From Chromatocurvus halotolerans (GTDB lineage Bacteria > Pseudomonadota > Gammaproteobacteria > Pseudomonadales > Halieaceae): a DNA stretch of 64,000 nt. Positions 9,387-32,094 of the stretch are shown here, in pieces. Numbering within the stretch: position 1 is the stretch's first letter; every line of letters starts with the position of its first letter. The stretch covers positions 248,001-312,000 of the forward strand of contig NZ_SLWX01000003.1 in NCBI RefSeq assembly GCF_004340525.1, written 5' to 3'. The notes below the pieces were generated by a model. It was not told the DNA's origin and ran no database searches. It worked only from the letters and a program-made list of their open reading frames with translations. Both the position numbers and the translations under genes were made by a program.

Positions 9387-10007
9387 ATGCAAAAGCCACG
9401 ATGGCAGCAGGTCTCTTTTGCTGAGGAACCCCTGATCCTGGTCAATGCCCGGGACGAACCCTGTGGTTTCGACAGCAAGCTCAATGTTCACGCGGGTGCC
9501 GGTAAGCTGCATCGCGCGTTTTCCATTTTTCTTTTCCGCGATTCCGAACACGTTCTTCTGCATCGGCGGAGCGCGGAAAAGCCTCTCTGGCCCGGCTACT
9601 GGACCAACAGTTGCTGCAGTCATCCCCGGCGGGGCGAGTGCAACAGGATCGCCACGTCACGCCGGCTGGAGCAGGAGTTGGGCGTGTCGGCGGAGCTGCG
9701 CTATCTCTACCGCTTCCAGTATCAGGCAGCCTTTGGCGATCTCGGCTCTGAACATGAGCTGTGTTCCGTGTATATCGGCAGGCTTGACGACGAGCAGGAG
9801 CTGCGTGTCAATCGCAGTGAGATCTCTGGGTGGGACTGGTTCCATGTGGATGACGTGGACAAGTGGCTGGCAGCGTCGCCGGAAACGCTCACACCCTGGT
9901 TCAAGCTCGAGTGGCAGCAGCTGCGGGGTCGCCATGCGGCAGATATCAGATCCCTGTTTACTGATGCTGGGAATTCGACTTCACGACCCCACGCCGTCGG
10001 TGAGTAG
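9387..10007 (+). CDS. idi: Isopentenyl-diphosphate delta-isomerase, type I
   Basis: Idi interconverts isopentenyl and dimethylallyl diphosphate and so feeds phytol and carotenoid synthesis. The 206-residue protein has the Nudix-like type-I fold: LNVHAGAGKLHRAFSIFLF, then WTNSCCSHP with the catalytic cysteine at Cys77 and the metal-binding His79, and a later acidic stretch (GSEHELCSVY) containing the second active-site glutamate. The start is supported by GGAG about 9 bp upstream. It is somewhat longer than the Escherichia coli enzyme because of its C-terminal tail. An idi gene inside a photosynthesis cluster is also known in other purple bacteria. Confidence 0.94.
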   Translation: MQKPRWQQVSFAEEPLILVNARDEPCGFDSKLNVHAGAGKLHRAFSIFLFRDSEHVLLHRRSAEKPLWPGYWTNSCCSHPRRGECNRIATSRRLEQELGVSAELRYLYRFQYQAAFGDLGSEHELCSVYIGRLDDEQELRVNRSEISGWDWFHVDDVDKWLAASPETLTPWFKLEWQQLRGRHAADIRSLFTDAGNSTSRPHAVGE

Positions 10008-10030
10008 AGCGTCGGCGAGTCTTTGCGGCC

Positions 10031-10048
10031 GCCCGGATATATCCGGGC
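10031..10048 (+). terminator. Possible hairpin behind idi
   Basis: GCCCGGATATATCCGGGC is a perfect 18-bp palindrome 24 bp after the idi stop. It has no T run, so its role as a terminator is uncertain. Confidence 0.4.
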
Positions 10049-10072
10049 AGCCGCCGCGTTTATCACAGGCAT

Positions 10073-10106
10073 AAAAAAACCGCCTGCGCACGTGCTGCGC
10101 AGACGG
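10073..10106 (-). terminator. Rho-independent terminator of hemN
   Basis: On the minus strand CCGTCTGCGCA (from 10106) pairs with TGCGCAGGCGG (to 10080), 10 of 11 bases matching, with a 5-nt loop, and is followed by seven T residues (10079-10073). It lies 18 bp behind the hemN stop codon. Confidence 0.85.
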
Positions 10107-10124
10107 CTCTCGATGGCTGCCCGA

Positions 10125-11456
10125 TCAGAGGACGGCGAGACCGCGAAAGTGCGGTGAGGCATCGCCCCAGAGCTGGTGAAGCGCAAAGCGACCATACTCC
10201 GTCACCTCGATTTTTTCCGGGGTGACCTGCACCAGTCCATCGCGCTCAAGTTCCGCGAGTGTGTTGGTTTCGCCGTTGGTTTCCAGCAGATCGCGGTAAT
10301 CTGACAGCTGCAGATTACACATGAGATCGTTCATGGCCTGGCGGCGTCTGCGCTCGGACTCACTGACAAGCATTCCCGACTGCAGTGGCAGATTGCCGCT
10401 CTGGATGGATTGTCGCCAATCATCGAGCTGCACCTGATTCTGGACGTTGGCGGAACCGATCTGGCTGATGGCGTCGGCGCCGAATCCAAACAGATCGCCG
10501 GCGTGCTGTGCCGTGTAGCCTACCCAGTTGCGGTGAAGCTTGCCGTCGAGTCGGGCGATGGACAGGGGGTCGTCACGGTGTGCAAAGCAGTCCAGTCCTA
10601 CCCAGTCGTAATCGTTCTCGAGCATGGCCTCACAGGCGCTGTTGAACATGGCCACCTTGTCGGCCAGCGACGGCAGGCTGGAGGTATCGATAGCGCGCTG
10701 ATGCTTGAAAATATCCGGCCTGCGTGAAAATGCATGACAGACGATGCGTTCCGGCGCTAGCTCTACCATGCGCCCGACGGTTTCCTGAATACTGCCGAGG
10801 GTCTGGTTGGGAAGCCCGTACACCAGATCCATGCCGATGGTGTCAAAGCCCTCGCTGCGGGCACTGCCGAGTACATCCTGCAGCATGGGCAGGGAATGTG
10901 ACCGGCCCACCGCCAGCTGAACCGCGCTGTCGATATCGCGGACCTGGAAGTTGATGATCTTGAATCCCAGGCCCTTGAGCAGTGCCAGCTGTGATGGTGA
11001 GCAGCGCTTGGGGCTGGCCTCCAGTGAGGTTTCTGTTTCGCTGGAAACGCCGAAATGCTTGTCGACGATATCCATCAGCCGGGACAGCTGGGTATCGCTC
11101 AGGTAATTTGGCGTCCCGCCTCCCAGGTGCAACTGCGTTAACGGTAGATGACGGCCGATGCGGTCGGTGACCATCTCGATTTCCTGCTCGAGGCAATTGA
11201 GATAGTCGTCAATGGTGTCGCCGTTGTGCGTCACGGTGGTGTGGTGATCACAGCTCAGGCAGCGGGACGGACAGAATGGCAGGCGTATGTGAATGGCGAT
11301 ATTCCTGCTGCCCGTGGCGCTCCAGGAGGACAGCACGTCGGCGTATTCGCCGGCGGTAAGCCCGGGAGCATGAACAGAGCCAAATAGCGGCGGCAATTGA
11401 TCGAGATCGCCGCTTGAGCGTGCGAGATAGTCAGGTAATTTGACCAGTGGGCTCAT
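10125..11456 (-). CDS. hemN: Oxygen-independent coproporphyrinogen III oxidase
   Basis: HemN is a radical-SAM enzyme that decarboxylates coproporphyrinogen III to protoporphyrinogen IX without oxygen. The 443-residue product has the CxxxCxxC cluster motif at Cys62, Cys66 and Cys69 (PFCPSRCLSCD), the HLGGGTPN motif (about 110-117), IGMDLVYGLPNQ and a HemN C-terminal domain, and is close to the normal family length. AGGAGGTG stands before the ATG. A perfect PpsR palindrome lies 157 bp upstream, so the gene seems to belong to the photosynthesis regulon and not to be simply a resident housekeeping gene. Confidence 0.94.
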   Translation of the reverse strand: MSPLVKLPDYLARSSGDLDQLPPLFGSVHAPGLTAGEYADVLSSWSATGSRNIAIHIRLPFCPSRCLSCDHHTTVTHNGDTIDDYLNCLEQEIEMVTDRIGRHLPLTQLHLGGGTPNYLSDTQLSRLMDIVDKHFGVSSETETSLEASPKRCSPSQLALLKGLGFKIINFQVRDIDSAVQLAVGRSHSLPMLQDVLGSARSEGFDTIGMDLVYGLPNQTLGSIQETVGRMVELAPERIVCHAFSRRPDIFKHQRAIDTSSLPSLADKVAMFNSACEAMLENDYDWVGLDCFAHRDDPLSIARLDGKLHRNWVGYTAQHAGDLFGFGADAISQIGSANVQNQVQLDDWRQSIQSGNLPLQSGMLVSESERRRRQAMNDLMCNLQLSDYRDLLETNGETNTLAELERDGLVQVTPEKIEVTEYGRFALHQLWGDASPHFRGLAVL

Positions 11457-11612
11457 CGAGCACCTCCTAGTGTACGCTGCGGTACAACTGGTCTGGCAGT
11501 GACTCCTCTGCTGGTGCAGAGAGGTGTCAGATAACAGTTTTTAGACAGTGGGTACGTTAATTTCCGGTTTCTGTTTGTTTTCACTTTCCAGAGTAGAAGC
11601 CGCTGATAGTTC

Positions 11613-11630
11613 TGTCAAATAATATTGACA
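11613..11630 (-). promoter_or_regulatory. PpsR/CrtJ palindrome and -35 box upstream of hemN
   Basis: TGTCAAATAATATTGACA is a perfect TGTCA-N8-TGACA palindrome. Read on the minus strand its end supplies TTGACA, with TACTCT 17 bp downstream (11595-11590) as a poor -10 match. The hemN start codon is 157 bp from the site, which would leave a leader of about 125 nt. The end of puhE is only 34 bp on the other side, so the site can only serve hemN. Confidence 0.75.
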
Positions 11631-11663
11631 CTATTCCTGCTGGCGCAGGGTTTGGCGTTGCGC

Positions 11664-12551
11664 TCAAAAGGCCGGAGAGCGAGTCCCCTGGCCCGATGTT
11701 GTGTTTGTCGCCGCTTTGGCACCCGGCATGGCGGCCACCTTGCAGGCAGGCGGCTTGCGGGCAGTCGTTCGCTGGCTGGTGCGGGCGCGAACCCGGTCCG
11801 CCGCCGTGATCGCCCACTGCCAGAGTGCACTGTCGCGTACCGGCAGGACCAGGAACCAGTGTTCCAGAATGGCCAGCGCGAGCAGCGTACAGACCAGCGA
11901 GGCCGCAAGACGGTCCACCGCATTGTCCGCGCCGGAGGCCTCCAGGGCGAGCAGGGTGGCCGCGATCGTTGCCAGCCCCACGGAAAAGGGAAACAGCCAG
12001 TTCATTGCCCGGGTGCGCATATAGCTGACCAGGTAGCGGTTACGCTCTGGCAGCCAGTGTTCGTTGAAATTGGACACCCCCAGGTACAGATTCAGCTTGG
12101 CGCTCCAGCGCATCAGCCACAGTGTCAGGTAGGTTCCCGCTGCCACCTGATTCGGAGCCTCCCAGGACAGGGCGATGATCGCGATCCCGCAGGCGATGAC
12201 AGCCAGTTCATGGTGAATGCTGGTCGCTACCGCAAGTCGGAAACGCTGCCAGCCGTTAATGCCGGCGGGGCAGGGCTGGCTGTTGTTGCCTGTGAGGAAG
12301 CCCATCAGGTAGCTGATCTCCAGCGCGCCCCAGACGGTCAGCGCCACCGCGAAACCGGCAATTGCAGCAGACTGGGAGTGCTGTCCGGCAATGCCGGGCA
12401 GCAGGGCGAGGCTGGCAAGTGCCAGCAGTGCAAAGCCGCCCACGCTCCAGGCGTGGCTGCGGCTGGGCAGCAGATTCAGGTAGAGAATAATGCCAGTGCT
12501 GAGCCACCAGCCCAGCAGGGAAATTGAAACAGCGAGCAGATAGCTGGACAT
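11664..12551 (-). CDS. puhE: Photosynthetic complex assembly protein PuhE (DUF3623)
   Basis: PuhE is a polytopic membrane protein of the puh operon needed for normal reaction-centre and bacteriochlorophyll levels; its biochemical function is unknown. The 295-residue product has about seven hydrophobic segments and recognisable family stretches WGALEISYLMGFLTG, ATSIHHELAVIACG and LGVSNFNEHWLPERNRYL. The last 45 residues or so (from about RVRARTSQRTT) are basic, of low complexity and not clearly part of the conserved domain. It is the last gene of the long bchF-to-puh unit, 10 bp after puhC, and the next gene on the strand (hemN) has its own promoter. Confidence 0.9.
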   Translation of the reverse strand: MSSYLLAVSISLLGWWLSTGIILYLNLLPSRSHAWSVGGFALLALASLALLPGIAGQHSQSAAIAGFAVALTVWGALEISYLMGFLTGNNSQPCPAGINGWQRFRLAVATSIHHELAVIACGIAIIALSWEAPNQVAAGTYLTLWLMRWSAKLNLYLGVSNFNEHWLPERNRYLVSYMRTRAMNWLFPFSVGLATIAATLLALEASGADNAVDRLAASLVCTLLALAILEHWFLVLPVRDSALWQWAITAADRVRARTSQRTTARKPPACKVAAMPGAKAATNTTSGQGTRSPAF

Positions 12552-12561
12552 TGACCGGTCG

Positions 12562-13017
12562 CTATCGGGTAGCTGCGACGGCTTTGTTCAACAGCGTGTT
12601 GAAGGAGCCGATATTGGTTTGACCGAATGCCACCAGGTTTATGTACGTGCCCACTGACGGATCCTCTATTACCATGCTGCCATCTGCGTATGAGACCAGA
12701 CGAAATGGCGGCGTCATGTCGATATCGCGACTGCGACGTTCGCGTGCCATGCTGCGCATGACGCCGCGGATGAAGCTGTCCTCGGCGGGCTCCAGCGTGG
12801 CGATATGGCTGTCAGTGCTCTGTTCGAAAACGTGCACTTCACCACCGCCAACATCAACGAAGCGCAGCGCGACCTGGTGTACCACTTCACTGTCGACCGT
12901 TGTGTCCGGTGTAAAGCCGGAGAGCCGCATGGCGGCCACCGTTGCCACCGTCATGATAACAATCGCGCCGACCAGGGTTGCCAGCCAGCGCGTCGGTGAC
13001 CAGTGGCGCAGACTCAC
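12562..13017 (-). CDS. puhC: Photosynthetic complex assembly protein PuhC
   Basis: PuhC supports assembly of the reaction-centre/LH1 core. I place the start at a GTG (13017) whose GTGA overlaps the puhB stop; this gives 151 residues with one N-terminal membrane anchor (about residues 10-32, WLATLVGAIVIMTVATVAAM) and a periplasmic domain with LRFVDVGGGEVHVFE, SFIRGVMRSMARERR and PFRLVSYADGSMVIEDP, all typical of the family. The frame continues upstream to 13218, but that part overlaps puhB and has a composition unlike a real N-terminus. Confidence 0.9.
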   Translation of the reverse strand: MSLRHWSPTRWLATLVGAIVIMTVATVAAMRLSGFTPDTTVDSEVVHQVALRFVDVGGGEVHVFEQSTDSHIATLEPAEDSFIRGVMRSMARERRSRDIDMTPPFRLVSYADGSMVIEDPSVGTYINLVAFGQTNIGSFNTLLNKAVAATR

Positions 13018-13682
13018 GCCAGCGCTCCCGCCTGTTCCAGTTCGCGCGAGTCGGGCTGTCGGGTCGGTTTCGAGACACTGACTGCCGCGTTGGTGCGAAC
13101 GTCGTCTCGATGCGCCGCGACGGCAGCAGCCAGTTCCCCGGCAACCCGGGTGGCATCCGGTACGTTGCGCAGCATCGGTATGACGGGTGACATGCTCCAC
13201 GGGCGTGCGTGGGGCCACAGCGCCCAGTAGGAGATCCGTTCGCCGTCCTCGAGCCGCAGGGCAATGTCACCGCTGCCATCGTTGAATGCACGCAGGTCCG
13301 CAGCGTGCATCCGGTCGAAGGGCAGGTTGATCATCATCGGTATCGCGACGCCGAAGCGCAATACCACGCGCTTGTTGGTTATCGTGTACACGGTGCTGCG
13401 TGCGAACAGCCAGGCCAGTCCGGACAGGAGCGCCAGGGTGAACAGGCCCAGCCCGGCCTGCCAGGCCAGGCTGGCAATGCCGCCGGCGACGTCGCCGCCG
13501 CCGCTGTAGTGGATCACCTGGTGCGCGCCGATGAGGACGGCAAAGTAGAGCCCGAACTGCTGGACTCTGAATGTTCGCCGCGCCATGCTGCGCCAGTCAG
13601 GTGAACCCTGCCAGGTCATGTGCTCGCCGGCCGGGAGTTCCTCGGGCAGGCCTTTTACCGGTTCGATTTCATACTCGTTCAT
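13014..13682 (-). CDS. puhB: Photosynthetic complex assembly protein PuhB
   Basis: PuhB is a membrane protein that helps reaction-centre assembly in Rhodobacter. The 222-residue product begins with EYEIEPVKGLPEELPAGEHMTWQGSP, a family hallmark (here split), has two or three hydrophobic helices (about 40-100) and then a bacterial PH-like domain with STVYTITNKRVVLRFGVAIP and INLPFDRM. It overlaps puhA (13679-13682) and puhC (13014-13017) by 4 bp each, so the three puh genes are probably coupled in translation. Confidence 0.93.
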   Translation of the reverse strand: MNEYEIEPVKGLPEELPAGEHMTWQGSPDWRSMARRTFRVQQFGLYFAVLIGAHQVIHYSGGGDVAGGIASLAWQAGLGLFTLALLSGLAWLFARSTVYTITNKRVVLRFGVAIPMMINLPFDRMHAADLRAFNDGSGDIALRLEDGERISYWALWPHARPWSMSPVIPMLRNVPDATRVAGELAAAVAAHRDDVRTNAAVSVSKPTRQPDSRELEQAGALA

Positions 13683-14500
13683 ATCAGTGGCTCCGTGCGT
13701 TCAGCCGTTGCGTAAAGGGTACCTCCGCCGTAGTAGGCGCAGACCTGATCCTCTTCCTGCAGCGTGATCTGGTCAGGATTGGCCAGCGTCGGGACGTTGG
13801 CGAAGTGCTCAGCCTTGATGGAACGCACGCGTACGGTGCCGTCCTTGCCACTGACACGCGCCAGCGTGATCGGGAGCAGTACGCGGCGGGGGCCTGCTTC
13901 AGCGGTACCCTCGTAACCTTCGGTGTCGGCAACCGGGGCGTGGAAGCCACTGCAGGCAACCTCCAGGTAGCGCACCTGCGGTTCAGCGCGATCTACCCAC
14001 AGATCGACGACTTCGCCGGCTTTCTCACCGTCGAGGCCATAGACCGCCTTGCCGCGGGGATCCGGGTCTTTCTCATTGACGGCAAAGTCCGTCGCCACAC
14101 GCATCGGGACGATTTTCGGCTGGCCGTCAATGGTCATGTCCGGCACCTGTGGACGTATCGCCCAGGCTCCGGGACCAACGCCGTCACGCATCGGGTCCCC
14201 GGTGGGGTGATACGCTGAGCCAAAGGTGCCGTCTAGCGGGCTTGCCGCCATTTCGTATTCCGCCGGATCCTGTCGCGGCGCCATGACCGAATCCTGTCCA
14301 TGCGGCATCAGGTATTCCTTGGTGTCCGGCAGGTCAGGAAAACCGACGACGCGGACATTGCGGTGAGCGTCGGTGAGCAGTGGATAGCCCTCGCGTTTAC
14401 CCTCCCGGTGCAGGTAAAGCACCAGAAGCAGAAAAAACAGCCAGAAGGCGTAGAGCGCCAGTTGTGCTACGTCAATGTAGCCAGTGATTGCACCTGTCAT
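13679..14500 (-). CDS. puhA: Photosynthetic reaction centre H subunit
   Basis: PuhA (273 residues) caps the cytoplasmic side of the reaction centre and guides protons to the QB site. One N-terminal membrane helix (about 10-30) is followed by YLHREGKREGYPL, a strongly conserved element, and a beta-rich cytoplasmic domain with GKAVYGLDGEKAGEVVDLW, VRYLEV and LLPITLARV, and the C-terminal DQVCAYYGGGTLYA. The length is normal. It follows lhaA by 25 bp and leads the puhABCE genes. Confidence 0.97.
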   Translation of the reverse strand: MTGAITGYIDVAQLALYAFWLFFLLLVLYLHREGKREGYPLLTDAHRNVRVVGFPDLPDTKEYLMPHGQDSVMAPRQDPAEYEMAASPLDGTFGSAYHPTGDPMRDGVGPGAWAIRPQVPDMTIDGQPKIVPMRVATDFAVNEKDPDPRGKAVYGLDGEKAGEVVDLWVDRAEPQVRYLEVACSGFHAPVADTEGYEGTAEAGPRRVLLPITLARVSGKDGTVRVRSIKAEHFANVPTLANPDQITLQEEDQVCAYYGGGTLYATAERTEPLI

Positions 14501-14525
14501 ATCGAGACCTCCAGTTGGACTCTTG

Positions 14526-15953
14526 TCATTCGGGAAACTCCGCTAGGTAAAATGCCGGCTGCCTTACCGCCAGCTCGCCAGGACCGCGTACGAGCGGGCC
14601 GATGGTGATCAGTGCGGCAAACAGCACCGCGATTTCAAGATGATAGACCACGCCATAGCCGGTCGCCGGACCGCTCAGGGCAACCCCGAGCGTGCCTGCG
14701 TCGGCCATGTGCGTAACGATGTCGCGTATCGCGCCGCCCGCCGCGATGGCGAGGCCGGTCGCAGTAGCCTGCACCGCGCCCCAGGCGCCGAGGGCCATGC
14801 CGGCACCCCCCTGCTGGCCAAGGTTCATTGCCGCCGTCAGCGTGCCGACGGCGAAAAGCCCGTTGCCAAAGCCGATGACCAGCGTGCCGCTGCGGAACAG
14901 CATGGCAGAATCCAGTGGCGCAGACAGGATGACCGCCGCGAACGCAAAAATGCCGGCGACGGCGCCGTAGGCCGACAGTCGAATCGGATCGGCACCCTGG
15001 CTCAGCTGGCGCGACGCGATGATGAACGCCGCGAGCATGCCGAGGGCGAAGATGGCGGTGAGGCCGGTGGTGGCGCTCACCGACAGGCCGAGCACTTCGC
15101 CACCATAAGGCTCAAGCAGGATGTCCTGCATGGCGAAGCCGGCGCTGCCGAGTCCGACGGCAACCAGCATTCGCAGTGTGCGACCCTGTTCCCGGAACTG
15201 TGCCCAGGCCACGGCGAAGGGAGGGCGAGGGGCTTCCCGGTTGCGGGTGGGGTCGCGCGGCTCCTGCTTCCACAGGGCGGTGGCGTTTAGCAGCGCCGTC
15301 AGCGCCGCCGCCCCCTGTATGACCTGGATCAGTCTCAGCTGGCTGAAATCCGCCAGCAGTAGTGCAAACATGAACGAGCTGCCGATCATGCCCACCAGCA
15401 GCATCACGTACATCATCGCAACAACGCGCGGGCGGGTCTTTTCGGTACCCAGATCCGTCGCCAGCGCAAGACCTGCTGTCTGCGTGGTATGCATGCCCGC
15501 ACCCACCAGCAGGAACGCGAGCGCGGCGGCTGCCGGGCCCACCCAGCTGGGTCCCTGGAAGGGCTCGGCCAGTACCAGCAGGGCGAAGGGCATGATCGCC
15601 AGTCCACCGAACTGGGCCAGTGTGCCGAGCCAGATATAGGGCACCCTGCGCCAGCCAAGTGCGGATCGGTGATGGTCGCTGCGGAACCCGATCAGCGCGC
15701 GCAGCGGGGCGAACAGCAGAGGCAGTGACACCATGAGTGAAACCAGCCAGGCCGCCTGGCCAAGCTCCAGTACCAGCACCCGGTTCAGTGTACCGTTGAG
15801 CAACACGAACGCCATGCCCACGGAGATCTGGAACAGCGACAGCCGCAGCAGGCGCCCGAGCGGGAGATCTTCGGTTACGGCGTCGGCAAACGGCAGCCAG
15901 CGAGTCCCGACTCGTGCCAGAAAGGTCTGGGTAAATGCGACGGAGCGCTTCAT
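14526..15953 (-). CDS. lhaA: LhaA, PucC-family LH1 assembly transporter-like protein
   Basis: LhaA belongs to the BCD family of the major facilitator superfamily and promotes LH1 assembly, possibly by handing over pigments. The 475-residue product has twelve hydrophobic segments and family motifs: LFQISVGMAFVLLNGTLNRV, LRALIGFRSDHHRSALGWRR and AMQDILLEPYGGEVLGLSV. It lies between bchM and puhA, the place it occupies (as orf1696) in Rhodobacter. A second PucC-family member is encoded behind bchG; the two differ enough not to be recent duplicates. Confidence 0.93.
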   Translation of the reverse strand: MKRSVAFTQTFLARVGTRWLPFADAVTEDLPLGRLLRLSLFQISVGMAFVLLNGTLNRVLVLELGQAAWLVSLMVSLPLLFAPLRALIGFRSDHHRSALGWRRVPYIWLGTLAQFGGLAIMPFALLVLAEPFQGPSWVGPAAAALAFLLVGAGMHTTQTAGLALATDLGTEKTRPRVVAMMYVMLLVGMIGSSFMFALLLADFSQLRLIQVIQGAAALTALLNATALWKQEPRDPTRNREAPRPPFAVAWAQFREQGRTLRMLVAVGLGSAGFAMQDILLEPYGGEVLGLSVSATTGLTAIFALGMLAAFIIASRQLSQGADPIRLSAYGAVAGIFAFAAVILSAPLDSAMLFRSGTLVIGFGNGLFAVGTLTAAMNLGQQGGAGMALGAWGAVQATATGLAIAAGGAIRDIVTHMADAGTLGVALSGPATGYGVVYHLEIAVLFAALITIGPLVRGPGELAVRQPAFYLAEFPE

Positions 15954-16664: not shown

Positions 16665-24629
<7,965 letters not shown>

Positions 24630-24870: not shown

Positions 24871-26253
24871 ATGTTTGTCGATTTGGACATATCAGCGCTG
24901 GCGAGCCTGCTTGAGAAAGTAGCGGACTTTTCCCTTGTTCTGGACAGGAATGGCAAGATTGTCGAGTTGGCTCTTAGCAGCGACGAATTGCAGGCCTACA
25001 TCGATGAGAGCTGGATCGGTGCGGATCTTGTTGACACGGTAGCCCCGGAAAGCCGCGGTCGTATCAAGGAGTATCTGCAGGCGGCCATTGACGAGCCCGA
25101 CACGCCAATCCGCGCCGACGTCAATCATCTGCTGGCTGACTCATCGCTGCTGCCTGTGCAGTACCGCATGGTTGCGCCTACGGGGGACACCCGCATTCTG
25201 GCCGTGGGTCGGGACATGCGCGCGGTTACCAGTCTGCGCCAGCAGTTGCTTAACGCGCAGCAGGCACTGGAGGCGGATTACTGGCGCCTGCGGCAGGTGG
25301 AGACGCGCTATCGCCAGCTCTTTGACCTGGTGTCCGAGTCCATTCTGGTGCTCGACGCGGTCAGCCACCGCGTTCTGGAGGCCAACCCGGCGGCGGCAGA
25401 GCTGCTGGGGAGTCAGGGTCAGCGTGTCGTTGGCAAGGCGTTTCCGCTCGGTCTGCGCAATGACAGTGCGCAGGCCATCAATTCACTGATGCTCGAGGCA
25501 CAGTCTGTGGGGCGTGCCCATGCATCGGGCCTGCAGCTCGAGGCCGATGGCAGCCTGGTGACGGTGGTCATCAGTTATCTGCGGCAGGCCAACGAAGCGC
25601 GGTTCCTGGTGCGAATGGCGCATGAGCAGCTGGCCAGCGCTGGCAGTGATGCCCTGCTGCCGCCCGCGCTGCAGAAGGCGCCGGATGCAGTTCTGCTGAC
25701 CGACACCGAGGGTCGCGTCCTGGCGGCAAATCGCGCGTTTGTCGACCTCTCCCAGGTGGTCAACGAAGAGCAGACGGTAGGCATCGTTGCCGATCGCTGG
25801 CTCGGCCGTTCCGGCGTGGATCTCAGCGTGCTGTTGAGCAATCTGCGCGAGCGCGGGGTGGTCAAGCTGTTCAGTACGGTGTTGCGCGGTGACTCCGGCG
25901 TGCATACCGATGTCGAGGTATCCGCGACACTGGCGGAATCGCCGCAGCGTCCGATGTTTGCCTTCTTTATACGTGACGTCAGCCGGCGGGTCAGCGCCCA
26001 GCAGGCCGGGGGTTCAGGCCTGCCTTCAACCATTGAGCAGATTACCCATCGGGTGGGGCGCCTGCCCCTGAAAGAGCTCGTGCGGGAGTCCACCGATGTC
26101 ATTGAAGCCATGTGCATCCGGGCAGCCCTGGAGTTGACCCAGGATAACCGGGCGTCTGCCGCAGAGCTGCTCGGGCTGAGTCGCCAGAGCCTCTATGCCA
26201 AGTTGAGGCGTTACGAAATCTCCGGCTTCGAGTCAGATCCGGTGTCGCCCTGA
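24871..26253 (+). CDS. ppsR: PpsR/CrtJ photosynthesis-gene repressor
   Basis: PpsR represses bch, puc and some crt genes under oxygen or bright light by binding TGT-N12-ACA palindromes. The 460-residue product has the family layout: an N-terminal PAS-like domain (about 5-115), a helical Q-linker (about 118-150), two PAS domains (about 150-250 and 265-375), and a Fis-type helix-turn-helix at 408-450 (RAALELTQDNRASAAELLGL). Palindromes are found at five promoters in this window, which supports the identity. Unlike Rhodobacter PpsR/CrtJ with two redox-relevant cysteines, this protein contains a single cysteine, Cys415 in the DNA-binding domain. No aerR/ppaA gene is next to it. Confidence 0.93.
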   Translation: MFVDLDISALASLLEKVADFSLVLDRNGKIVELALSSDELQAYIDESWIGADLVDTVAPESRGRIKEYLQAAIDEPDTPIRADVNHLLADSSLLPVQYRMVAPTGDTRILAVGRDMRAVTSLRQQLLNAQQALEADYWRLRQVETRYRQLFDLVSESILVLDAVSHRVLEANPAAAELLGSQGQRVVGKAFPLGLRNDSAQAINSLMLEAQSVGRAHASGLQLEADGSLVTVVISYLRQANEARFLVRMAHEQLASAGSDALLPPALQKAPDAVLLTDTEGRVLAANRAFVDLSQVVNEEQTVGIVADRWLGRSGVDLSVLLSNLRERGVVKLFSTVLRGDSGVHTDVEVSATLAESPQRPMFAFFIRDVSRRVSAQQAGGSGLPSTIEQITHRVGRLPLKELVRESTDVIEAMCIRAALELTQDNRASAAELLGLSRQSLYAKLRRYEISGFESDPVSP

Positions 26254-26311
26254 GGCGGCTACCGGCGGCCAAGGGGTGTAAACTCGAGATGACACCAATA
26301 TCCTCAAAAAG

Positions 26312-26352
26312 TGTCATTAATAATTGACACTTGTTTGCTGGCCTTCTATATT
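26312..26352 (+). promoter_or_regulatory. bchG promoter with PpsR palindrome over the -35 box
   Basis: The palindrome TGTCATTAATAATTGACA (26312-26329) is a perfect TGTCA-N8-TGACA. Its right half contains TTGACA (26324-26329), and exactly 17 bp later stands TATATT (26347-26352): a near-consensus sigma70 promoter that PpsR would block directly. The ATG of bchG is only 7 bp behind the -10 box, so the transcript is predicted to begin at or one base before the start codon. Confidence 0.85.
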
Positions 26353-26358
26353 CAGGCA

Positions 26359-27276
26359 ATGCAATCGCCCGAATCAGCGCTCACCAGACCGACCCGACTC
26401 GACCCACGGGGCCTTCTTCAATTGCTCAAGCCGATTACCTGGTTCCCGCCGATGTGGGCCTTCGGCTGTGGCGTGGTGTCATCCGGCATGTCGCCGGCAC
26501 AGATGCCCTGGGCGATCGTTGCCGGGGTGATTCTTGCGGGGCCAATGGTCTGCGGAGCCAGTCAGATCGTGAATGACTGGTTTGATCGCCATGTCGATGC
26601 CATCAACGAGCCAGAGAGGCCGATTCCCTCGGGCCGTGTCCCCGGCAGGATTGGTCTGTATTACGCCATCATCTGGTCACTGCTGTGCCTGCTGCTCGCG
26701 GCGACGCTGGGAGCCGTGGTCTTCTGGGCAACCGTGCTTGGTCTGGTGCTGGCCTGGGCCTACAGTGCGCCGCCGGCGCGGCTGAAGCTTAACGGCTGGT
26801 GGGGTAACGCCGCTGTCGGATTCTCCTACGAGGGCCTTGCCTGGGTGACCGGCGCCGCAGTGATGCTTGGCGGTGCCATGCCGGCCAACGAAATTCTGAT
26901 TCTCGCGGTGCTTTACAGCCTCGGCGCCCACGGCATCATGACCCTCAACGATTTCAAGGCCATCGAGGGCGACCTGCAGCTGGGCGTGCGCAGTATTCCG
27001 GCACAACTGGGGCCGGATCGAGCGGCGCGTCTCGCCTGTGTGGTCATGCTGGTACCCCAGGTGGTGGTCGTTCTTCTTCTGCTGTCCTGGGACAAAGGCG
27101 GCTTTGCGGCCGCTATCGGCGTCGGCATGCTGCTTCAGCTCTGGGCGATGCGTCGATTACTGACGGATCCCAAGGGCCTCGCGCCCTGGTATAACGGTAC
27201 GGGCGTAACGCTCTACGTGCTGGGCATGCTCGTGGCCGCCTTCGCGGTGCGCGGTCTGCCGGGAGTCGGCGCATGA
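26359..27276 (+). CDS. bchG: Bacteriochlorophyll synthase (geranylgeranyl transferase) BchG
   Basis: BchG is a UbiA-family membrane prenyltransferase that attaches geranylgeranyl diphosphate to bacteriochlorophyllide a. The 305-residue product begins with the typical LKPITWFPPMWAFGCGVVSSG region (split here) and has the aspartate-rich motif NDWFDRHVDAINEPERPIP, about seven to nine membrane helices, and GAHGIMTLNDFKAIEGD as the second acidic motif. The frame is open to a GTG at 26311, but that lies inside the operator. No Shine-Dalgarno sequence precedes the ATG at 26359, in line with a leaderless message. It overlaps the next gene by 4 bp. Confidence 0.95.
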   Translation: MQSPESALTRPTRLDPRGLLQLLKPITWFPPMWAFGCGVVSSGMSPAQMPWAIVAGVILAGPMVCGASQIVNDWFDRHVDAINEPERPIPSGRVPGRIGLYYAIIWSLLCLLLAATLGAVVFWATVLGLVLAWAYSAPPARLKLNGWWGNAAVGFSYEGLAWVTGAAVMLGGAMPANEILILAVLYSLGAHGIMTLNDFKAIEGDLQLGVRSIPAQLGPDRAARLACVVMLVPQVVVVLLLLSWDKGGFAAAIGVGMLLQLWAMRRLLTDPKGLAPWYNGTGVTLYVLGMLVAAFAVRGLPGVGA

Positions 27277-28646
27277 ACCTGCCGGCGCTGGGCTGGTTCG
27301 GCATTGTCCGCCTGGGTCTGGTGCAGACGTCCATCGGCGCGGTCGTTGTTCTTACCACCTCGACGATAAACCGGGTGATGGTGGTAGAGCTGGCGCTGCC
27401 GGCCATGATCCCCGGTTTTCTGGTTGCCATTCACCATCTTGTGCAGATGTCGCGGCCCCACTTCGGCCACCGTTCGGATATCGGTCGTCGGCGCACCCCC
27501 TGGATCATTGGCGGTATGCTGGTGCTGGCTCTGGGCGGCGTCGGCGCCGCCCTGGGGACTGCCATTGCCGGAAATGCCCCTGGCGTCGGGCTGACGGTGG
27601 CGCTGCTGTCGTTCATCGCCATTGGTCTTGGCGTTGGTGCAGCCGGGACCTCACTGCTCACCCTGCTGTCCCAGCGTGTTGCCAAAGAGCGGCGCGCTGC
27701 CGCTGCCAGCATTGTCTGGATCATGATGATCGCCGGCTTTGCCATTACCGCCACGGTAGCCGGCCAGTTCCTCGACCCGTTTACGCCCGAGCGGCTGGTG
27801 GCAGTCACCGGCACGGTTTCCCTGCTGGCTGTCTGCCTCACCCTTGTCGCGTTGCGCGGCATTGAGGGTGTGGCACCCCGAACTCAGGTCCCGGCCGCCG
27901 ACGCGGCACAGACGCCGGCTGCGGGCGTGGATTTTCGGGCTGCACTGTCAGAGGTGTGGCGCGAGCCGACGGCGCGGCGCTTCACCCTGTTTGTGTTCGT
28001 GTCCATGCTTGCCTATAGCGCGCAGGATCTGATTCTGGAGCCCTATGCGGGCACCGTCTTTGGCATGACGCCGGGCGAATCCACGAAAATGGCAGGCATG
28101 CAGCATGGCGGTGTGCTGCTGGGAATGCTGCTGGTGGCTGCTACCGGGACTGGCAGGCGCCGTTCCGGGGTCGACGCCCTCCGTCTGTGGACGGTTGGCG
28201 GTTGCATTGCCTCGGCGCTGGCCCTGTTCGGTATCGCCTTTGGCGGCATGCTGTCAGCAGACTGGCCGCTGCGTCTGAATGTTTTTCTGCTCGGCATCGC
28301 CAACGGTGCGTTTGCCGTCGCTGCGATCGCTTCCATGATGGCCCTCGCAAGCCGGGGAAGCCACGGTCGCGATGGTCTTCGGATGGGGCTCTGGGGTGGC
28401 GCTCAGGCGATAGCCTTTGGTCTCGGCGGACTGCTGGGCACGGTTGCCATCGATATTACACGACAGCTCCTGCAGGAGCCGGTGCATGCGTACGCACTGG
28501 TATTTGCCTGCGAAGCTGTGGTTTTCCTGTACGCGGCGGTACTGGGTGCTGGAGTGCGCTCCGGGACCACCGCGACATTCAATGATCACCACGCTGCGCC
28601 GGGATTCGGCGACGTTGCCATGGTGGAAGTACTGCACGGGAGGTAG
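27273..28646 (+). CDS. PucC/BCD-family MFS protein of the bchG-bchP operon (Bch2/Orf428)
   Basis: The 457-residue product belongs to the same BCD family as LhaA and PucC, with twelve hydrophobic segments and the motifs LVQTSIGAVVVLTTSTINRV, QMSRPHFGHRSDIGRRRTP and SAQDLILEPYAGTVFGM. In Rhodobacter a homologous gene (orf428) also lies between bchG and bchP. A role in pigment delivery or in bacteriochlorophyll tail processing is inferred from position; the substrate is unknown. The start overlaps bchG by 4 bp and the stop is 2 bp before bchP, so the three genes form one unit. Confidence 0.9.
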   Translation: MNLPALGWFGIVRLGLVQTSIGAVVVLTTSTINRVMVVELALPAMIPGFLVAIHHLVQMSRPHFGHRSDIGRRRTPWIIGGMLVLALGGVGAALGTAIAGNAPGVGLTVALLSFIAIGLGVGAAGTSLLTLLSQRVAKERRAAAASIVWIMMIAGFAITATVAGQFLDPFTPERLVAVTGTVSLLAVCLTLVALRGIEGVAPRTQVPAADAAQTPAAGVDFRAALSEVWREPTARRFTLFVFVSMLAYSAQDLILEPYAGTVFGMTPGESTKMAGMQHGGVLLGMLLVAATGTGRRRSGVDALRLWTVGGCIASALALFGIAFGGMLSADWPLRLNVFLLGIANGAFAVAAIASMMALASRGSHGRDGLRMGLWGGAQAIAFGLGGLLGTVAIDITRQLLQEPVHAYALVFACEAVVFLYAAVLGAGVRSGTTATFNDHHAAPGFGDVAMVEVLHGR

Positions 28647-28648
28647 TC

Positions 28649-29845
28649 ATGCAGTCAGTAGAACACTTTGATGTAGTCGTGGTCGGGGGCGGTCCCTCGG
28701 GAGCGACTGCGGCAACAGATCTTGCGCGACTCGGCAAGCGGGTGCTGGTGCTGGAGCGGGCGTTTCGTATAAAGCCCTGCGGCGGCGCGATACCGCCGAG
28801 GGCGATCGAGGACTTCGATATCCCCTCGCATCTCATCGTGGCGAAGATCAAGTCTGCACGCATGATTTCACCGAAGGATGCGCGTGTCGATATGCCGGTG
28901 GGTGACACCTACGTCGGCATGGTCGACCGCGATGTGTTTGATCCCTGGCTCCGGGAGCGGGCACGCGGCGCCGGTGCAGAAGTGCGCACCGCGACATTCA
29001 AGCAGCTCGAATATCTTGAGGACGGGCAGGCGCGCGTTACCTATCTGGACAAGAACAGCAGCGGTGAACATCGCTGTGTGACGGCCAGCGCCGTCATTGG
29101 TGCTGATGGTGCGAAATCCCGCGTGGCCGCCCAGTGTGTTCCCGGTGGCGATCGCATGCGCTGCGTGTTCGCCTACCACGAGATCGTCGAGGCGCCTGCC
29201 GCCGATACGGGCGCGGACTACGACCCCCTGCGCTGTGATGTCTGGTACCAGGGCCGTCTGTCGCCGGATTTCTACGCGTGGGTGTTCCCGCACGGTGACA
29301 AGGCCAGTATCGGTGTGGGCAGTGAGCAGAAGGGCTTTTCCGCGCCGGCCTCGGTAGCGGCTCTGCGCGAGACCGTGGGATTGAAGGACGCGAAAACCGT
29401 TCGGCGAGAGGGCGCGCCCATTCCGCTCAAGCCTCTGAAGCGCTGGGACGACGGACGTCGCGTGCTGTTGGCGGGTGATGCGGCGGGTGTGGTTGCCCCG
29501 GCGTCCGGCGAGGGTATCTACTACGCCATGCTGGGTGGCCGGCTTGCCGCGGAAGCCGTTGCAGAGTTTCTGCATAGCGAAAATCCCGCGGCTCTGCGCT
29601 CTGCACGCAAGCGGTTTTTACGCGAGCACGGCCGTGTCTTTTTCGTGCTCGGCATCCTGCAGCGCTTCTGGTATTCCAGCGACAAGCGCAGAGAAAAGTT
29701 TGTTGCCATCTGCCGCGACCCCGACGTGCAGTATTTGACCTGGCAGGCCTATACGCAGAAAAAACTGGTGCGCGCCAAACCTGTGGCGCACCTGCGTATT
29801 TTCTTCAAGGATATGGCACACCTGCTGGGTATGGCGCGGACCTGA
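28649..29845 (+). CDS. bchP: Geranylgeranyl diphosphate/bacteriochlorophyll reductase
   Basis: BchP is a flavoprotein that reduces three double bonds of the geranylgeranyl tail to phytyl. The 398-residue product has an N-terminal FAD motif VVVVGGGPSGATAATDLARL (about 10-29), KPCGGAIPPRAIEDF, the second FAD-binding stretch GRRVLLAGDAAGVV near residue 270, and SGEGIYYAMLGG. Length and order behind bchG and the PucC-like gene are normal for purple bacteria. A small membrane-protein gene follows after 14 bp. Confidence 0.95.
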   Translation: MQSVEHFDVVVVGGGPSGATAATDLARLGKRVLVLERAFRIKPCGGAIPPRAIEDFDIPSHLIVAKIKSARMISPKDARVDMPVGDTYVGMVDRDVFDPWLRERARGAGAEVRTATFKQLEYLEDGQARVTYLDKNSSGEHRCVTASAVIGADGAKSRVAAQCVPGGDRMRCVFAYHEIVEAPAADTGADYDPLRCDVWYQGRLSPDFYAWVFPHGDKASIGVGSEQKGFSAPASVAALRETVGLKDAKTVRREGAPIPLKPLKRWDDGRRVLLAGDAAGVVAPASGEGIYYAMLGGRLAAEAVAEFLHSENPAALRSARKRFLREHGRVFFVLGILQRFWYSSDKRREKFVAICRDPDVQYLTWQAYTQKKLVRAKPVAHLRIFFKDMAHLLGMART

Positions 29846-29859
29846 GCCAGACCTGCGCA

Positions 29860-30135
29860 GTGGAGTCACTGCTTGCTGTGCTGGTCTCGCCACCGGTCAT
29901 TGATCTGATTCTGCTGGCCGTGCTTGCGGAGGGTGCAGGCCTGCTGGTGCTCTATCGTGTCAGCGGTCGCGGCATTCCGCCGGGTGTCCTGCTGCCCAAT
30001 CTTGTCGCCGGCGGCTGCCTGTTCCTCGCTCTCAGGCTGGTGCTGTCCGATGCGGCTGTCTACTGGGTCGCGCTGACGCTGGTGGTTGCCCTGATTGCGC
30101 ATCTCACTGAACTGGTTCTGCGCTGGCAGCGTTGA
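29860..30135 (+). CDS. Small membrane protein of unknown function behind bchP
   Basis: The 91-residue product starts with GTG 14 bp behind the bchP stop; no strong ribosome-binding site is seen. It has three hydrophobic segments: about 3-22 (LLAVLVSPPVIDLILLAVLA), 25-60, and 64-84 (AVYWVALTLVVALIAHLT), with few charged residues except Arg33, Arg37, Arg59 and the C-terminal RWQR. I do not recognise a named family. Distance and direction suggest co-transcription with bchG and bchP; a link to pigment or membrane assembly is only inferred from that. The codon composition agrees with its neighbours, so I believe it is a real gene. Confidence 0.65.
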   Translation: MESLLAVLVSPPVIDLILLAVLAEGAGLLVLYRVSGRGIPPGVLLPNLVAGGCLFLALRLVLSDAAVYWVALTLVVALIAHLTELVLRWQR

Positions 30136-30363: not shown

Positions 30364-31440
30364 CTACCAGGCGGGTGCCATGCAGACCGTGTCGGGCAGC
30401 TGGTTGGACTTGGTGGGCAGGAGATAGAGTCGCGCAAACACTGTGGCGCCGCGCACTGTCAGCCAGCCGCGCTTCAGGCCCGCGATCATGCCGCCGCGGG
30501 CACGTGTTTCCTGTATCGCAACGTTGATGTGCCGCAGCTTCTCGAGTCCGCGCCGGAACACCGGATTATCCGTATCCAGCGTCAGCGGGAAGACCTGTCG
30601 CGTGATCTCCGTGGTAATGTCGAACACGCGATAGTCGAACTCGGTGGGATCCATGCCCAAGGCCTCGTAGAGCTGTGGCCGGGTGTGATCTCGCACATAC
30701 ATGGTGGCGTAGACCGCCAGCAGGAAAAAGCGGATCCACAGCTTGTTGACGCCCTTGAGGAGGTGCGGGTTCGAGCGCATGATCAGGGCGAAGGCCTCGC
30801 CATGGCGATACTCGTCATTGCACCATTCCATGAACCATTTGAAGATGGGGTGGAAGCGGTGTTCCGGGTGGCGCTCGAGGTGCCGGTAGATCGTGATGTA
30901 ACGGGCATAGCCGATCTTCTCTGACAGATACGTCGCGTAGTAGATGTACTTGGGCTTGAAAAACGTGTAATTTTTCTCGCGCTTGAGGAATCCGAGATCG
31001 ACAGCAAAGCCGAGGTGCTTGAGGGCGCGATTGATAAATCCGGCGTGGCGTGACTCGTCACGCGCCATGTAGCCCATCAGGTCGGCGATATCCTTGTTGT
31101 CGATGTTCTTCTGAATTTCCTGGTAGAGAACGCAGCCTGAATACTCCGACGTGACGGAGCTCACCAGGAAATCGATGAACTCATCGTGAAGATGTTCGGG
31201 GATGTTTACACCTTCGGCATCGAAATCGACTTCCTTGCGGAAGTGATCGCGGTTCTCGTCGCGCTCGAATTCGGCCATCATCTGGTCCCATTCACGGCGC
31301 ACGGGAGAAATGTCCAGTTTTTCGAGCTGGGCATAATCAGTGCGATAGAATCGCGGCGTGAGCAGTGTATCCTTCGCTTTGGATTGCTCTGCGGTTCGAG
31401 CTTTGGTCGAGGGGGGGGTGGCGGCTGTCGCATCTGTCAT
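30364..31440 (-). CDS. acsF: Aerobic Mg-protoporphyrin IX monomethyl ester oxidative cyclase
   Basis: AcsF is the di-iron, oxygen-dependent enzyme that closes the fifth (E) ring, giving divinyl-protochlorophyllide. The product (358 residues from the ATG at 31440, which has AGAGG 11 bp upstream) shows the ferritin-like iron-binding pieces [12 protein letters not shown] and [17 protein letters not shown] at 31470 in frame would add 10 residues but has no ribosome-binding site. No gene for the anaerobic cyclase BchE is seen in the window, so pigment synthesis should need oxygen. PpsR-type sites lie 50-95 bp upstream, shared with the divergent BLUF gene. Confidence 0.95.
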
Positions 31441-31492
31441 TGTCAGGTAACCTCTTTCATTCATGTCCACGCTGTGGCGGGCAACGTTGCAG

Positions 31493-31510
31493 TGTAAACT
31501 AAACTAGACA
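31493..31510 (-). promoter_or_regulatory. PpsR/CrtJ palindrome upstream of acsF
   Basis: TGTAAACTAAACTAGACA fits TGT-N12-ACA exactly, 53 bp from the acsF start. It is followed 7 bp away by an imperfect copy (31518-31535). For acsF a possible promoter uses TTGACA of the imperfect copy (31523-31518, minus strand) with TAGTTT (31501-31496) as a weak -10 lying inside this palindrome. Confidence 0.75.
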
Positions 31511-31511
31511 T

Positions 31512-31540
31512 TACACATGTCAAGTATAGGTGACTATACT
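31512..31540 (+). promoter_or_regulatory. Candidate promoter of the BLUF gene
   Basis: TACACA (31512-31517) and TATACT (31535-31540) are separated by 17 bp and match the sigma70 hexamers at four and five of six positions. The imperfect PpsR-type site at 31518-31535 fills the spacer. The BLUF start codon is 78 bp downstream. Confidence 0.5.
31518..31535. promoter_or_regulatory. Imperfect PpsR-type site between acsF and the BLUF gene
   Basis: TGTCAAGTATAGGTGACT matches TGTCA-N8-TGACA in all but the last base. It lies 7 bp from the perfect site at 31493-31510 and overlaps both the proposed acsF -35 box and the start of the -10 box of the BLUF gene, so PpsR bound here could affect both directions. 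Confidence 0.6.
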
Positions 31541-31617
31541 GTGATGCTCAAGGTGAATTGCCGGCAGGCGGCATCACAGCACAGGGATTGCCTCTGTGTC
31601 AGGCAGGAGACAGTTCA

Positions 31618-32094
31618 ATGACAGGCTCAGCATCCAATTCCACGCCGGACAGTCACCGCGACGACCGGGGTGATGAACTGTATCACCTGGCCTACGTCAG
31701 CACCCTGGTGTCACCCATGGCCGCTGAAGAGGTTGTTGAACTGCTGCGCGTCGCCCGGGCCTGTAACGAAATCCGTGGGGTCACCGGGCTGCTGCTGCTT
31801 CGCGGCGACTCGTTCTTTCAGGTTCTGGAGGGGCGCGAAGAGGATGTGCACGCGATTTTCGAGCGGGTTTTCGCCGATGCGCGTCATCACCGGATCGAGG
31901 TGCTGTTCGAGGAGCCGCTCGCCGAACGCGAGTTTGGCGATTGGCAGATGGGCTTCGTCGAGCTGGATGGTGTGGATGTCAGTGAGCTGGAGGGGGTGTC
32001 GGACTTTCTCAGCCGGGATGCCGATCCGCGCGAAATGTTTACCCACCTCACCCGCAGCAAGCGCCTGATGCTGATGTTCCGGCAGATGTGCTAG
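31618..32094 (+). CDS. Stand-alone BLUF-domain blue-light sensor
   Basis: The 158-residue product is a BLUF domain with a short tail on each side. Residues expected to surround the flavin are present: Tyr26 (LAYVST), Asn50 (ACNEIRG), Gln68 (FFQVLEG), Trp109 and Met111 (FGDWQMGF). The N-terminal 20 residues are polar and may be disordered; the last residue is Cys158. AGGAGA lies 9 bp before the ATG. No output domain is attached, so it must act through a protein partner. Its place in the photosynthesis cluster beside PpsR-type sites suggests a link to photosynthesis-gene control, but it lacks the B12-like domain of AppA. The 3' end overlaps the opposite DUF3080 gene by 47 bp. Confidence 0.92.
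   Translation: MTGSASNSTPDSHRDDRGDELYHLAYVSTLVSPMAAEEVVELLRVARACNEIRGVTGLLLLRGDSFFQVLEGREEDVHAIFERVFADARHHRIEVLFEEPLAEREFGDWQMGFVELDGVDVSELEGVSDFLSRDADPREMFTHLTRSKRLMLMFRQMC

Follow-up and report, generated by a model that had tools for sequence, protein, structure and literature searches.

The photosynthesis gene cluster (PGC) of Chromatocurvus halotolerans encodes a small BLUF protein, and the question raised by this locus is whether that protein provides light input to the repressor PpsR in place of AppA or AerR/PpaA, as the initial annotation suggested. The analysis was centred on a window of 64,000 nucleotides and was extended to the whole host genome, to other Halieaceae and to a phylum sample. 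Papers designated by PMC number are cited for the passages available.

The BLUF-PpsR link had been put forward as a new proposal; it was, in fact, already in print in 2009, when Spring et al. proposed that a single-domain BLUF protein encoded near ppsR in Congregibacter litoralis, which has two BLUF genes, modulates PpsR without AppA (PMC2654016). The proposal was repeated in PMC3666943. The statement that a BLUF gene near photosynthesis genes had been noted in OM60/NOR5 strains is correct (PMC2654016, PMC3176799); the latter paper records that in two NOR5/OM60 strains the PGC is preceded by a BLUF gene and that acsF and BLUF are close together; for the other two clades it mentions ppsR and ppaA, but for NOR5/OM60 just crtJ. 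In its available passages, a 2025 review (PMC12654162) mentions Halieaceae blue-light photoreceptors without a BLUF-PpsR test, and a search of titles and abstract openings, with subscription papers mostly beyond reach, found no report of such a test in this group. The gene of C. litoralis KT71, KT71_19323, resembles the window BLUF gene in that it lies near ppsR in an OM60/NOR5 strain without appA and encodes a single-domain protein (PMC2654016); judging by its position, it is probably the orthologue of the window gene. What PMC2654016 offers on KT71_19323 is a hypothesis and physiology: the terms AerR and PpaA are absent from its main text and, unlike the present analysis, its passages on this gene describe no acsF linkage, subfamily or PpsR changes.

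From left to right, the cluster around the BLUF gene comprises bchF on the minus strand, then ppsR, bchG, the lhaA-like gene, bchP and a 91-aa ORF on the plus strand, acsF on the minus strand and BLUF on the plus strand:

24108-24629, minus strand: bchF, divergent from ppsR
24871-26253, plus strand: ppsR (TIGR02040, 482 bits; PAS-Q-linker-PAS-PAS-HTH_8), a gene not named by the initial annotation
26311-27276, plus strand: bchG; TGTN12ACA sites start at 26277 and 26312
27273-28646, plus strand: PUCC-family transporter (lhaA/pucC-like)
28649-29845, plus strand: bchP, geranylgeranyl diphosphate reductase
29860-30135, plus strand: 91-aa ORF with no Pfam/NCBIfam family match, found in the same place in some relatives
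30364-31470, minus strand: acsF, aerobic Mg-protoporphyrin IX monomethyl ester cyclase, divergent neighbour of BLUF
31471-31617, no strand assigned: acsF/BLUF divergent intergenic region, with a TGTN12ACA PpsR-type site and a one-mismatch copy
31618-32094, plus strand: BLUF gene (158 aa, ATG start), an ORF with a Pfam BLUF match; stand-alone, of the acsF-linked subfamily, flavin site intact

The ppsR gene lies 5.4 kb upstream of the window BLUF gene and is the single PpsR match of the host genome at E<=1e-30. Its product has a single cysteine, C415, within the HTH; the second redox cysteine known from Rhodobacter PpsR has no counterpart in it.

The description of the BLUF protein as stand-alone, with all flavin-site residues and no output domain, was confirmed. 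Pfam BLUF is its sole recognised domain, matched over the whole profile (E=2.4e-28) with no second Pfam family at E<=0.001. Tyr26, Asn50, Gln68, Trp109 and Met111 are all present, and each is invariant across a 54-row alignment of relatives, in which the frameshifted L044 and the X-containing L093 were not used. The protein therefore has the BLUF domain and the Tyr, Asn and Gln residues of a BLUF photoreceptor and, as in BlsA-like short BLUF proteins, no output domain; at 158 aa it does not have the fusion of BLUF to SCHIC that defines AppA. The terminal Cys158, which had also been pointed out, is present, but cysteine is the last residue in just 5 of the 54 aligned proteins, and a conserved redox switch at this position was thereby ruled out. 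The predicted structure has a mean pLDDT of 80, and Foldseek returned, as expected, 1yrx (the AppA BLUF domain) as the top match; PixD was among the following matches. Because the pLDDT is just 58-77 by block over residues 111-158, the model was not used to define a contact surface. The 3' ends of the BLUF gene and of a convergent DUF3080 frame overlap by 47 bases (32048-32094).

As had been proposed, the BLUF gene stands beside PpsR-type sites. A perfect TGTN12ACA is located at 31493-31510, between acsF and BLUF, and a one-mismatch copy at 31518-31535 in the same gap; 16 sites were counted in positions 1-32100 of the window versus 3 in 32101-64000. Among 60 distinct homologous acsF-BLUF gaps, which stem from related genomes, 29 contain an exact TGTN12ACA, with 33 sites versus 2.9 expected from mononucleotide shuffles. 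Upstream of other BLUF genes, the motif was not found above chance (2 of 39 regions; 1.8 sites expected). The sites in the acsF-BLUF gap may serve acsF, BLUF or both.

The family survey covered 140 Halieaceae genomes, counted over family cut-offs. PpsR was found in 59 genomes and BLUF in 68; both were present in 55, PpsR only in 4, BLUF only in 13 and neither in 68. Thus, with kinship ignored, BLUF was found in 55 of the 59 genomes with PpsR versus 13 of the 81 without it. Two of the four PpsR-only genomes are cut by contig ends (a truncated BLUF in G076; a contig that stops 238 bases past acsF in G071), and for the other two, G068 (62% complete) and G081 (95% complete), neither BLUF nor acsF was listed. 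The acsF gene was found in 58 genomes, with BLUF as its divergent neighbour in 55; the remaining three (G071, G076 and G082, whose contig stops inside acsF) are contig-end cases. In 28 genomes, one of them represented by the G076 fragment, BLUF follows ppsR on the same strand at a distance of 5.1-9.0 kb; in G007, it is 16 kb from ppsR, on its other side. Some members of genus g21 have acsF and BLUF together at a distance from ppsR and bchP. A general rule that ties BLUF to ppsR rather than to acsF was therefore ruled out, since BLUF stays with acsF when apart from ppsR.

This constancy of the divergent pair, together with its persistence away from ppsR and a BLUF-AcsF partial mirror-tree correlation of 0.18 (p 0.009), is what an acsF-centred explanation draws on, in which BLUF would act on acsF or on the cyclase. 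Such an action appears distinctly unlikely: in locus L249 (genome G144), BLUF lies near lhaA, bchP, a PpsR-like gene and a bacteriophytochrome-like gene, with no acsF match in the 17-kb locus; moreover, to our knowledge, acsF-bearing phototrophs elsewhere do without an acsF-linked BLUF, and we know of no BLUF that acts on a cyclase. The bacteriophytochrome-like gene of G144 (L249/L372; 628 aa; BphP E 6e-96, below the family cut-off) is located between the PpsR-like gene and BLUF. These neighbours recall the BphP-PpsR2 pair of Rhodopseudomonas, and G144 is a candidate case of adjacent red and blue receptors.

In the BLUF tree, calculated without L128 and L130, the 55 acsF-linked BLUFs and that of G088 (contig edge) form one 56-row group, although the support (89/92) is not strong. 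The window protein belongs to this subfamily by its divergent acsF, its place in the tree and its C-terminal ending (...RLxLxFR or close). A comparison with other Halieaceae BLUFs, without L102, L128, L130 and L141, identified 28 positions conserved in the subfamily but not in the others, 19 of them in residues 105-155, where few other BLUFs align at 124-130, so that those positions say little. The C-terminal segment of the window protein (about residues 105-155) is thus subfamily-specific, and the majority ending in relatives is SRGKRLALMFR. A search for BLUF relatives across genome contigs, considering the best 80 of 107 loci, identified acsF-linked members beyond the BLUF rows of the 140 genomes, namely L204, L209, L211 and L212 (genomes G140-G143). 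A second PpsR-like ORF of the cluster is located between bchP and acsF in L211 (6993-8480, full-length) and L204 (8361-9290, 309 aa, recognised by a PpsR-like match). In G110 (L044, L165), the C-terminal segment typical of the other BLUFs is absent from the BLUF frame, and an internal stop divides the PpsR match; this possibly reflects decay of light control, or assembly errors.

The C-terminal tail as a feature unique to phototrophs was weakened by L258 and L263, which have similar endings. L258, from Ca. Thiodiazotropha, is a BLUF relative (39% identity) in a genome without PpsR, and it is directly followed by a CheB/CheR-PAS-GGDEF-EAL protein (10001-14660). It bears on the explanation that the BLUF signal reaches PpsR by an indirect route or goes to a different output (a c-di-GMP enzyme, a response regulator or a linker protein). 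The cyanobacterial BLUF protein PixD works through a separate partner, and a second host BLUF (L001 85-1365, contig C20) also adjoins a GGDEF-EAL protein, so that a further light input to c-di-GMP is possible in this organism. On the other hand, no such partner was found as a constant neighbour of the PGC BLUF, with 11 window proteins searched around it. On balance, we consider an indirect route or another output unlikely, though not strongly so.

The initial annotation had found no appA, aerR or ppaA between positions 1 and 32,100, and profile searches showed that this holds for the whole host genome. An AerR/PpaA profile was built from five PpaA/AerR proteins encoded directly upstream of ppsR on PGC plasmids. 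Among six plasmid clusters viewed, aerR lies beside ppsR in five, the sixth being that of Thiodictyon. In the five alphaproteobacterial plasmid clusters, aerR/ppaA occupies the interval between bchF and ppsR; in the window, this interval is empty, and the host thus has no B12-binding protein directly upstream of ppsR. At E<=0.01, the AerR/PpaA profile matched the host genome just once, through a B12 domain in an open frame of 727 aa (E=6e-6) that is not of AerR/PpaA grade, and AppA_SCHIC gave no match in the host genome at E<=0.01. None of the 59 PpsR-bearing Halieaceae has an AerR/PpaA-type gene directly upstream of ppsR. The best match to the AerR profile was 5e-11 among the 140 Halieaceae and 5e-10 among those with PpsR; all the matches listed start at profile position 109 or beyond, i.e. 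in the B12-binding half, and most of them fall in open frames of about 720 aa, which are putatively methylmalonyl-CoA mutase-like. No SCHIC match exceeded the cut-off in the 140 genomes, with weak matches in 3 of them, the host not included. Part of g21 has B12 proteins in frames of about 230-260 aa that were considered as possible AerR; L361, the one scanned, is not AerR, as its B12 protein consists of two parts and is encoded next to a trimethylamine methyltransferase.

The phylum sample, an even one, comprised 397 genomes at least 90% complete, of which 39, including the host, carry PpsR at E<=1e-50. In each of the 38 others, a ppsR is immediately preceded by an AerR-type gene on the same strand (<1.5 kb), with a best E per genome of 5e-27 to 3e-82. 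BLUF occurs in 30 of these 38 genomes and in none within 60 kb of ppsR on the same contig, a count limited by short contigs; the distance table does not include a weak, partial BLUF row of G305, whose contig (C122) is not the one that carries ppsR. A 445-aa protein of G169 (Gammaproteobacteria; L370 1817-3157) has an N-terminal BLUF and an AppA_SCHIC match just below the cut-off, and this AppA-like fusion coexists with aerR-ppsR in the genome. In G237 and G278, BLUF and AerR-type matches fall in open frames of equal length (370 and 391 aa, respectively).

Substitution of BLUF for AerR fits the Halieaceae, but it is not a strict rule, since two metagenome-assembled genomes (MAGs) have both, on different ppsR copies, and Thiodictyon has neither near ppsR. 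MAG G141 has two PpsR genes, one directly behind aerR and the other in a bchF/ppsR-bchG-lhaA-bchP/acsF/BLUF block. G143 also has both arrangements, but both of its PpsR are partial, cut by contig ends; binning errors are possible in these MAGs. A strict replacement of AerR by BLUF in every carrier is thereby ruled out. In a PpsR tree that took in 22 of the 59 Halieaceae rows, the BLUF-block PpsR of G141 and G143 join the Halieaceae in a 26-row clade (support 100/99), and the AerR-linked PpsR of G141 groups with the AerR-linked PpsR (96/71); the BLUF-block clade does not include the second PpsR-like genes of L211 and L249. Among the other carriers of this BLUF, G140 gave no AerR-profile match at E<=0.01, and G142 and G144 gave weak ones (1.5e-14 in 369 aa and 3e-4 in 274 aa, respectively).

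In the Thiodictyon plasmid pTs485, bchF and ppsR have nothing between them, and neither an AerR/PpaA nor a BLUF match was found in a 25-kb stretch around ppsR. The AerR of G141 as a query gave no match on pTs485 (plasmid only); with the same query, the PpsR plasmids of Roseobacter ponti and Thalassococcus gave no match either, although the latter carries an AerR-type gene. As the PpsR of pTs485 is sister to the BLUF-block clade (90/88) and its gene has no AerR or BLUF nearby, the aerR beside ppsR may have been lost before BLUF came. For this reason, our estimates both for control of PpsR by BLUF and for direct binding were reduced.

It is important to mention that PpsR itself differs between the two arrangements. 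Six Q-linker residues of CrtJ, said to be conserved in all known orthologues, were modelled as facing AerR/SCHIC (PMC9144470). By our alignment, residue 123 of the window PpsR, an Arg, is the equivalent of the first of them, CrtJ Gln133. Gln is found here in 36 of 36 AerR-linked PpsR, and Arg (56) or Lys (4) in 60 of the 61 rows for Halieaceae and the G141/G143 blocks, the 61st being a gap; within the Halieaceae alone, with one row per genome, Arg or Lys is present in 58 of 58 readable rows. The residue table included 29 of the 41 non-own PpsR matches, those with loci. Two early-branching BLUF-block PpsR (L204, L211) and that of Thiodictyon keep Gln, and Q123R/K is probably a single event. At the other five modelled positions there is hardly any change even where AerR is absent (Val is found at one of them in 6 of 58 readable Halieaceae rows), so the linker face may not be AerR-specific. 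Moreover, 4 of 45 positions invariant in the AerR group have changed, with a chance of about 0.45 of striking one of six given positions, so that the change is not significant alone and was rejected as statistical proof. In a mirror-tree analysis of the 33 genomes with usable copies of all seven genes, the partial correlations of BLUF were 0.30 with PpsR, 0.27 with BchP and 0.18 with AcsF, and those of PpsR with BchF (0.45) and LhaA (0.35) were above that with BLUF. This analysis does not single out PpsR as the partner of BLUF.

As regards known systems, we know of no exact precedent for a BLUF domain touching PpsR alone, because the linker contact of AppA is made by SCHIC. AppA of Rhodobacter sphaeroides resembles the window protein in its BLUF fold and gives blue-light input to PpsR, the function proposed for the window protein, but in the AppA-PpsR structure its heme-binding SCHIC, not BLUF, contacts the PpsR Q-linker (PMC9144470), a domain that the 140 Halieaceae do not have over the cut-off. 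AerR/PpaA is a PGC-linked sensory partner of PpsR/CrtJ, the role proposed here for BLUF, whereas it has a B12-binding fold of another domain family and is encoded directly upstream of ppsR. LdaP of Dinoroseobacter shibae, which senses blue light through a flavin, co-purifies with PpsR and is an antirepressor in the dark; in contrast, it has a LOV domain, is of 38.5 kDa with its tag, and its genome keeps PpaA (PMC10890935). BlsA of Acinetobacter baumannii is a short BLUF protein that binds and antagonises the repressor Fur in the dark (PMC5955987), but its repressor and regulon are different and its host is not phototrophic.

Pigment repression under blue light is known from C. litoralis, Luminiphilus syltensis and Pseudohaliea rubra (PMC2654016, PMC3666943). 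For two strains, PMC3666943 additionally reports repression by green light, and it considers oxidative stress a possible cause. The effect could accordingly derive from photo-oxidative stress or from another photoreceptor (other BLUFs, LOV), with the PGC BLUF playing a minor part, and three further BLUF proteins are encoded in the host genome, which has four BLUF matches in open frames of 150-186 aa. Of these four BLUF genes, however, just the window gene is part of the PGC; the tree places none of the other three within the acsF-linked group, and upstream of BLUF genes from beyond this group PpsR-type sites are no more frequent than expected by chance. We regard a dominant role of stress or of other receptors as improbable.

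The best explanation, which we put forward tentatively and rate just short of an even chance, is that the PGC BLUF is a blue-light receptor that tunes PpsR and acts as its dark-state antirepressor. In the dark or in dim light, BLUF would bind PpsR through its C-terminal segment and lower repression; blue light would alter this segment, setting PpsR free, and pigment genes would be turned off. PpsR may also repress the BLUF gene, in which case the two would form a feedback loop. We count in support the AerR/BLUF contrast, the co-occurrence of BLUF and PpsR, G141/G143, the PpsR clade, the linker residue, the physiology of the strains and the LdaP and BlsA precedents; we count against it acsF as the constant neighbour, pTs485, the mirror-tree result, the single-event linker change, the SCHIC linker contact and L258. 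The BLUF-PpsR interpretation, published as speculation, is thus plausible and now appears better supported through the AerR/BLUF contrast. The more specific proposal, which on the sequence comparisons we consider unlikely, is that in the Halieaceae PGC lineage AerR was replaced by a stand-alone BLUF that makes direct contact with PpsR, with no SCHIC/B12 module involved, the rewired contact consisting of the Gln to Arg/Lys change in the Q-linker and the new BLUF C-terminal segment; MAGs with both pairs would then have both systems side by side. The idea of a BLUF-PpsR link is itself known; the acsF-linked BLUF subfamily, the contrast with AerR, the dual-arrangement MAGs and the Q-linker residue are new here.

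The comparison sharpens the 2009 remark: P. rubra (G146) and L. syltensis (G147), which show blue-light repression, each have one PpsR, an acsF-linked BLUF in the PGC and no AerR match better than 1e-7, and thus none of AerR grade. OM60/NOR5 bacteria and the Roseobacter lineage are the dominant aerobic anoxygenic phototrophs of the sea (PMC3666943). If the proposal is true, a PpsR-type repressor would have swapped one photosensory partner for another of unrelated fold.
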